64,000 nucleotides of DNA from Exiguobacterium sp. s122 (GTDB lineage: Bacteria; Bacillota; Bacilli; Exiguobacteriales; Exiguobacteriaceae): NCBI RefSeq assembly GCF_018618475.1, contig NZ_JACSMD010000002.1, positions 186,001-250,000 of the forward strand, given 5' to 3'. Every line of letters begins with the position of its first letter. Within the stretch, counting starts at the first letter, position 1. The notes beneath the pieces are model-generated. The model did no database searches and was not told the origin of the DNA. It was given only the letters and a program-made list of their open reading frames with translations. The translations under genes were made by a program, and so were the position numbers. Of the stretch, positions 30,457-31,815 are shown piece by piece.

Positions 30457-30537
30457 ATGGTTCCCCCTGCATTCGTCGTATAATAACCATTATACTAAAT
30501 GGACGGTTTCGAAACGTCCGACGGAAGGATGAGCCCG

Positions 30538-30924
30538 ATGTTGCATCATGTCGAATTGTACGTCTCTGATTTGAAAAAGAGTCTGACCGCTTGGGACTGG
30601 CTCCTCACCGAACTCGGTTACACGCTGTATCAACAGTGGGACCAAGGACAAAGCTATCGGTTTGGAGAAACGTATCTCGTCTTTGTCCAGACGGAGACCG
30701 CGCACCTTGAACCACCGTACCATCGGAAAAAGACTGGCTTGAACCACCTTGCTTTTCATGCCGATTCATTGGAACAGCTCGAGCGACTGCGCTCACAACT
30801 GGCTCAGCATGGATTTATGGAACTATACGCCGACCGTTTTCCCTACGCCGGCGGACCGAATTACATCGCGCTTTATTTCGAAGATCCAGACCGGATGAAA
30901 GTCGAACTCGTGGCGACGATGTGA
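30538..30924 (+). CDS. VOC family (glyoxalase/bleomycin-resistance) protein
   Basis: A 128-residue metalloenzyme-fold protein of the VOC superfamily. The pattern MLHHVELYVSDLKKS at the start, GLNHLAFHAD in the middle and IALYFEDPDRMKVELV at the end gives the His, His, Glu metal set. Substrate unknown: VOC proteins include glyoxalase I and antibiotic-binding proteins. GGAAGG lies 9 bases before the ATG at 30538. A TATACT at 30491-30496 may be its -10 box. Single gene, divergent from the GTPase pair. Confidence 0.8.
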   Translation: MLHHVELYVSDLKKSLTAWDWLLTELGYTLYQQWDQGQSYRFGETYLVFVQTETAHLEPPYHRKKTGLNHLAFHADSLEQLERLRSQLAQHGFMELYADRFPYAGGPNYIALYFEDPDRMKVELVATM

Positions 30925-30945: not shown

Positions 30946-30973
30946 AAAGTTTGTGAAAACAATTGCAAACTTT
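30946..30973 (+). promoter_or_regulatory. inverted repeat upstream of the formate/nitrite transporter
   Basis: AAAGTTTG (30946-30953) and CAAACTTT (30966-30973) form a perfect 8-bp inverted repeat. The middle, TTGTGAAAACAATTGCAA, resembles Rex/Fnr operators (left half exact, right half partial) and also a cre (TGAAAACAATTGCA). It is 45 bases before the start codon, so it may be an operator or part of the leader RNA. Confidence 0.45.
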
Positions 30974-30978
30974 AAGAA

Positions 30979-31010
30979 GACCTCCTAGACTTGAAGTGTC
31001 TAAGGAGGTC
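30979..31010 (+). promoter_or_regulatory. leader hairpin that buries the ribosome binding site of the FNT gene
   Basis: GACCTCCTAGAC (30979-30990) pairs with GTCTAAGGAGGTC (30998-31010) over 12 bp with one bulged A and a 7-base loop. The 3' arm contains the whole ribosome binding site AAGGAGGT; the ATG is 8 bases further. No T run follows, so it is not a terminator. The fold should block translation unless opened. Confidence 0.7.
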
Positions 31011-31017
31011 GTTTCAA

Positions 31018-31815
31018 ATGGAAAAACAAGTCGTCGATTATATGGAGGAAGCCGCGCATAAAAAAGCGACACTGTTGCGTCACGCGTTCGGACAGTATGT
31101 GTTACGCTCCATCATCGCCGGATTTTTAATTGGAGTTGGGGTCGTCTTCGCGTTCTCGGTCGGCAACATGTTCATCGAGGTGCCGGGCACGATGCTGTTT
31201 GCCGGGATGAGTTTCTCGGTCGCGCTCGTCTTTATCGTTTGGATGGGTGGCGAACTGTTCACGAGCAATACGATGTACGCATATACCGGGGCGAAACGAC
31301 ACCGCATCTCATGGCGTGAGCTATTCGCCGTCTGGGGAGTCAGTTGGGTCGGCAATTTGGTCGGTGCACTCCTTCTCGTCAGTCTCGTCGTCGGTGCCCA
31401 CAGCATGGGCGAGGTCGGAAGCGACCACCTTTTGGCCGTTGTCGCCGCAAAAAAGATGGGAACCGATGCATTCGCCATCTTCTTAAAAGGAATCCTTTGC
31501 AACGTGCTCGTCTGCATCGCCATCTTCATGCCGTTGAAAACAAAAAATGACGTCGCCAAAATCATGTTGACGATGTTACCGGTCGTCGCCTTTTTCGCAG
31601 CCGGGTTCGAGCACTCGATCGCCAACATGGGCATTTTCGCACTCGCCTTGCATTACGCGCCCTCTGAGACGATTAACCTCGGGTTTGCCCTCAACAACTT
31701 GTTGTTCGCCACACTCGGTAACATCGTCGGCGGTGCCTTGTTCGTCGCGGCAACGTATCTCCATTTGAACGCACAAACCTCGACGAACGTCGAATCGATT
31801 CGGCAGAACGCATAA
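31018..31815 (+). CDS. formate/nitrite transporter (FNT) family protein
   Basis: A 265-residue membrane channel/transporter with six helices, FNT family (FocA/NirC/YrhG). Signatures are AGFLIGVGVVFAFSVG near the N terminus, the Omega-loop region with GELFTSNTMYAY (about 80), WVGNLVGALLL, and the half-repeat GILCNVLVCIAIFM and GFEHSIANMGIFAL (about 195). It passes formate, nitrite or a similar small anion. The ATG at 31018 has AAGGAGGT, held in a strong hairpin. No pyruvate-formate lyase or nitrite reductase gene is adjacent, so the anion cannot be deduced from context. Confidence 0.9.
   Translation: MEKQVVDYMEEAAHKKATLLRHAFGQYVLRSIIAGFLIGVGVVFAFSVGNMFIEVPGTMLFAGMSFSVALVFIVWMGGELFTSNTMYAYTGAKRHRISWRELFAVWGVSWVGNLVGALLLVSLVVGAHSMGEVGSDHLLAVVAAKKMGTDAFAIFLKGILCNVLVCIAIFMPLKTKNDVAKIMLTMLPVVAFFAAGFEHSIANMGIFALALHYAPSETINLGFALNNLLFATLGNIVGGALFVAATYLHLNAQTSTNVESIRQNA

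Follow-up and report, generated by a model that had tools for sequence, protein, structure and literature searches.

A conserved hairpin over the ribosome binding site of a formate/nitrite channel gene, with a candidate promoter nested in its 5′ arm

In the insertion sequences IS10 and IS50, read-through transcripts contain the terminal inverted repeat, whose folding conceals the ribosome binding site of the transposase gene. The mRNA from the internal promoter is made without this fold, and the transposase is protected from outside promoters. A similar arrangement has been documented experimentally for gene e (lysozyme) of bacteriophage T4, where long early transcripts fold over the Shine-Dalgarno (SD) sequence and translation is reduced approximately 100-fold; late promoters within the stretch of DNA that specifies the 5′ strand of the fold give open, well-translated transcripts without that strand (PMC3014915). 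The leaders of soc, 49 and I-TevI are alike, and T4-related phages retain the late promoter in the 5′ strand (PMC3014915). Listeria lmo0514 has two start sites that yield a long and a short 5′-UTR, with SD occlusion predicted in the long one (PMC4214639). In Bacillus subtilis, ywcJ, a gene of the formate/nitrite transporter (FNT) family, is repressed by Rex (PMC5355995).

Here we describe an FNT gene of Exiguobacterium in a window of 64,000 nucleotides, by which we mean the whole stretch of DNA analysed. As in T4 gene e, its stem would hide the SD sequence in longer transcripts, and the candidate promoter would lie within the DNA that specifies the 5′ strand. Whereas gene e belongs to a phage, depends on a late sigma factor, serves lysis timing and has been tested experimentally, the FNT locus is a chromosomal channel gene with a predicted SigA-type promoter and an operator, and is known from sequence. 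If transcription starts where we predict, the locus would work like gene e. IS10 and IS50, in contrast, are mobile elements and have no operator of the FNT type. The resemblance to lmo0514 lies in leaders of different length, the longer with predicted SD occlusion; there, however, the long form is opened by the small RNA Rli27 and used, and the short form is also predicted to be occluded (PMC4214639). Like ywcJ, the gene belongs to the FNT family and has a candidate operator of Rex type, and a Rex-type site also accompanies the other FNT gene in the genome, but the operator in the window matches Rex less well, has extended arms and occurs together with a hairpin. The proposed mechanism belongs to a kind known from phage T4 and the insertion sequences. 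In the literature searched, which lay mostly outside subscription journals, we found no account of it as a conserved feature of a chromosomal metabolic gene, and this use of a nested promoter and hairpin appears to be undescribed.

The hairpin and its conservation

The 265-residue product of the gene belongs to the FNT family, scoring 214.7 bits against PF01226 (curated cut-off 34.6), and its closest solved relatives are the formate/nitrite transporter structures 3tdo and 3tdr. It scored below every NCBIfam subfamily and equivalog cut-off, and its substrate may be formate, nitrite or hydrosulfide. The gene upstream, of the glyoxalase/dioxygenase superfamily, is co-oriented with it in all 19 species compared, its stop codon lying 21–23 nt before the operator. 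The features of the locus, and of two further loci discussed below, are collected in Table 1.

Table 1. Positions of genes and of observed and predicted elements; plain numbers are window positions, and the prefix G000:C1 marks positions elsewhere in the same genome.
Feature	Position	Strand	Remarks
Glyoxalase/dioxygenase superfamily gene	30499..30924	+	PF00903, E 1.5e-07
28-bp near-palindromic candidate operator, Rex-like by sequence	30946..30973	.	AAAGTTTGTGAAAACAATTGCAAACTTT; identified by conservation
Predicted −35 hexamer TTGCAA	30963..30968	+	right half of operator; invariant in 19 species
5′ arm of SD-sequestering hairpin	30979..30990	+	GACCTCCTAGAC
Predicted −10 hexamer TAGACT	30986..30991	+	within 5′ arm; invariant, fixed spacing
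Predicted transcription start (±1–2 nt)	30998	+	first base of 3′ arm; inferred, 7 nt past −10
3′ arm of hairpin	30998..31010	+	GTCTAAGGAGGTC; contains SD AGGAGGT
FNT family channel gene, 265 aa	31018..31815	+	PF01226, E 1.6e-63
HrtB-like permease gene (heme-efflux type)	G000:C1:1216947-1217948	−	direct repeats, presumably of HssR type; SD hairpin
Small membrane-protein gene	G000:C1:1918160	+	TGAAAC-N17-CGTA; −10 in loop of long SD hairpin

An earlier note on this DNA had described a hairpin that takes in the whole ribosome binding site, with a single bulged A and the start codon 8 bases beyond. Both sequence and folding bear this out. The arms GACCTCCTAGAC and GTCTAAGGAGGTC pair around a 7-nt loop, the 3′ arm containing the SD sequence, and the ATG follows at the distance given. 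The segment 30940–31040 folds with −28.6 kcal/mol (z −4.3), a value equalled by none of 200 shuffled sequences. By the predicted energy cost of holding the SD sequence unpaired we ranked 882 SD-bearing genes from stretches of the same genome amounting to ~1.26 Mb, the window included. The cost for the FNT leader, 15.5 kcal/mol, ranks third in this sample, whose median is 2.4 and whose 99th percentile is 9.6 kcal/mol. Predicted folding thus has the stem hiding the SD sequence in longer transcripts. The note saw no terminator T run after the hairpin, and no terminator-like site was found on the + strand between the glyoxalase-family gene and the FNT gene.

The comparison covered 19 species of the genus as defined by GTDB, Exiguobacterium being the name that the close orthologues carry, and an FNT orthologue is present in each of them. 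In the sister genus close orthologues are lacking and the relative present is a distant paralogue type (~39% identity), so the depth of conservation is one genus. Within it the hairpin is kept in 19/19 congeners. Stem pairs were counted on a hand-registered alignment, in which the nine inner pairs persist in every species bar one pair in one species; many species lack outer pairs, and the loop drifts as well. Compensatory changes, for which the earlier note suggested comparing relatives, are almost absent from the FNT stem, with a single compensated pair (G-C to A-U in species G001). Since the arms are either invariant or lose their outer pairs, covariation here neither proves nor refutes an RNA helix.

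The order of elements is the same throughout. The operator is followed by a freely varying gap, a near-invariant ACCTCCTAGACT and a short variable loop of 7–8 nt; then come GTCT (18/19), a run of 2–4 A residues, GGAGG, a spacer of variable length and the ATG. The CTCC of the 5′ arm is invariant. Neither CTCC nor GTCT is needed by a −10 box or an SD sequence, and it is their conservation that makes the case for an RNA helix. Judged by the alignment, both arms are conserved beyond the needs of promoter and SD sequence.

A candidate promoter and operator around the 5′ arm

Upstream of the hairpin lies the T/A-rich repeat that the earlier note placed correctly and suggested might stack on the stem. 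Its columns have near-zero entropy against 0.7–1.9 bits in the flanks across the 19 species, which is the conservation of a DNA operator and not of a stacking helix; a site in the DNA to which a protein binds is the better reading. The element differs from TTGTGAANNNNTTCACAA at three positions and includes one perfect half site, TTGTGAA; against the Rex consensus that PMC5355995 gives for B. subtilis it has two mismatches. A Rex-family gene is present in this genome. Sites with at most two mismatches, better matches than the operator in the window, lie upstream of the second FNT gene and of two genes that we take from their translations to be ldh-like and adhE-like. Rex is our best guess for the regulator of the candidate operator. 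In species G001 alone, a G at the operator centre gives TGAAAACGATTGCA, a sequence reminiscent of a catabolite (cre) site. At the second FNT gene (G000:C1:1428554) the Rex-type site, with two mismatches, is located upstream of the start; a hairpin over the SD sequence like that of the first gene was not noticed.

The 24-bp core of the operator occurs once per genome in 19/19 species. This single occurrence, together with a count of CCTCC..GGAGG pairs that hardly departs from the reversed control (24 versus 23), led us to discard a genome-wide family of identical leaders.

In 19/19 species 12 nt separate the operator from TAGACT, across 5–6 variable columns. The distances from stop codon to operator, through the loop, along the A run and from SD sequence to ATG all vary among the same species. 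Rigid spacing typically reflects contacts of RNA polymerase and regulators with DNA; a flexible RNA linker would not be expected to show it. The fixed distance despite the varying gap sequence is the ground on which we place a promoter inside the hairpin. Scanning the upstream region for every −35/−10 combination with spacers of 15–19 nt, we found that TTGCAA-17-TAGACT alone attains 8/12 matches in every one of the 19 species, and we found no conserved promoter candidate upstream of the hairpin. The hexamers match at only 8/12, which 31% of shuffled versions of the block also attain, and this is not significant alone; we accordingly dropped the consensus match as stand-alone evidence, and the case for the promoter rests on invariance and spacing. 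Because the predicted −35 hexamer lies within the operator, repression by occlusion would be the natural inference.

If transcription begins near position 30998, where the 3′ arm begins, the message from this promoter would lack the 5′ arm. The earlier note supposed that the 5′ arm is transcribed, and here it probably erred: given the predicted −10 box, the predicted start and the spacing fixed in 19/19 species, a start downstream of 30985 looks likely. Folding predicts that exposing the SD sequence costs 0–7 kcal/mol in the own transcript compared with 5.5–15.6 kcal/mol when the 5′ arm is included. In species G005 and G006 the predicted own transcript retains modest SD structure (6.5–7 kcal/mol).

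Competing readings of the hairpin

These observations suggest the following mechanism. The FNT gene would be driven by its own operator-controlled promoter, with the −10 box in the 5′ arm of the hairpin, and its transcripts would begin roughly where the 3′ arm begins, lack the 5′ arm and be translatable. Transcripts reading through from the glyoxalase-family gene, after which no terminator is predicted, would carry both arms, fold and remain untranslated. As own messages would be translatable and read-through messages folded, we interpret the hairpin as a fold-back insulator that would keep FNT synthesis under its operator. The fold would then probably silence only stray messages from the neighbouring gene, and the gene's own message would escape. 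Fold-back insulation by a promoter nested in the SD hairpin is the best explanation for the FNT locus and, in our judgement, a moderately probable one.

The earlier note had instead proposed a fold that keeps the gene silent until something opens it. An SD-sequestering fold and control at translation are plausible, and a translational switch in the normal FNT message, opened by a protein, a small RNA or a helicase, would account for a stem that is both strong and conserved and for the retention of CTCC and GTCT. Such a switch is nevertheless not favoured, as the sole conserved promoter candidate lies inside the hairpin and none upstream of it; the fixed spacing between hairpin and operator is moreover a constraint at the level of DNA, the loop and outer pairs drift, and no other conserved RNA domain accompanies them. 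A search of the whole window with the Rfam 15 covariance models at the gathering threshold gave no match, and predicted SD pairing hardly changes between 20 and 60 °C in most species, with no melting predicted. The predicted stability of the stem up to 60 °C in most species speaks against an RNA thermometer and, taken with the drift of loop and outer pairs and the lack of an Rfam family, indicates neither a thermometer nor a known riboswitch. We consider a translational switch unlikely. Since a promoter may sit inside it, a strong hairpin over a ribosome binding site in a genome need not signify a riboswitch or thermometer.

Less likely still is that the arms are complementary only by accident, with the −10 region and the SD sequence each conserved for its own sake. 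TAGACT and AGGAGG would be conserved in any case and covariation is scarce, as this explanation expects, but it gives no reason for the conservation of CTCC before the −10 box and of GTCT before the SD sequence, it has to produce the third-strongest hairpin among 882 genes, and the HrtB-like gene described below shows the same nesting, there together with a compensatory pair. The inverted repeat 30979–31010 could also be a second DNA operator at which a regulator binds over the −10 box and start, and it does overlap the predicted promoter. Its half-site spacing, however, varies with the loop (7–8 nt) and the A run (2–4 nt), which would be unusual for a dimer site, and one half is a consensus SD sequence; we regard this reading as very improbable.

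If fold-back insulation is correct, cells would apply the trick of phage T4 and the insertion sequences to ordinary regulated genes. The point at which a message starts would decide whether it can be translated, and a strong regulator would therefore not be undermined by leaky transcription from a neighbour.

Further nested candidates in the same genome

Each of the top three SD hairpins among the 882 genes has a candidate −10 box in or at the hairpin, either in the 5′ arm or in the loop. The two that rank above the FNT leader belong to the HrtB-like permease gene and the small membrane-protein gene. In the HrtB-like gene we take the direct repeats to be of the HssR type. The hrt promoter contains a direct repeat needed for its activation (PMC3968170). 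In all 17 species in which the HrtB-like gene was matched, the gap between repeat and −10 box is 7 nt; the −10 box, TATGCT or TACACT, is at the hairpin edge, and the 5′ arm starts within it. The outermost stem pair is G-C in 11 species, G-U in 1 and A-U in 5, differing between clades, which is a compensatory change. By its sequence, this gene appears to present the nested architecture independently in the same genus. In species G012 the HrtB-like gene reads with a TAG in frame and with a long run of T following the SD sequence, which may reflect a broken copy or an error in sequencing.

The small membrane-protein gene, whose TGAAAC-N17-CGTA element is presumably an ECF-type promoter, is present in only 4/19 species. 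It is possible, though we would bet somewhat against it, that nested regulated promoters are a recurrent, selected form of read-through insulation for inducible chromosomal genes in Bacillota, represented in one genome by the FNT channel, the heme-efflux-type permease (HssR), the gene with the ECF-type promoter and possibly others; the additional cases are few and were picked after the fact. A pattern search also returned CCTCCC..TATAAT..GGGAGG at G000:C1:272258-272293, directly upstream of a gene for a 349-aa protein, with a perfect −10 box in the loop of an SD hairpin.
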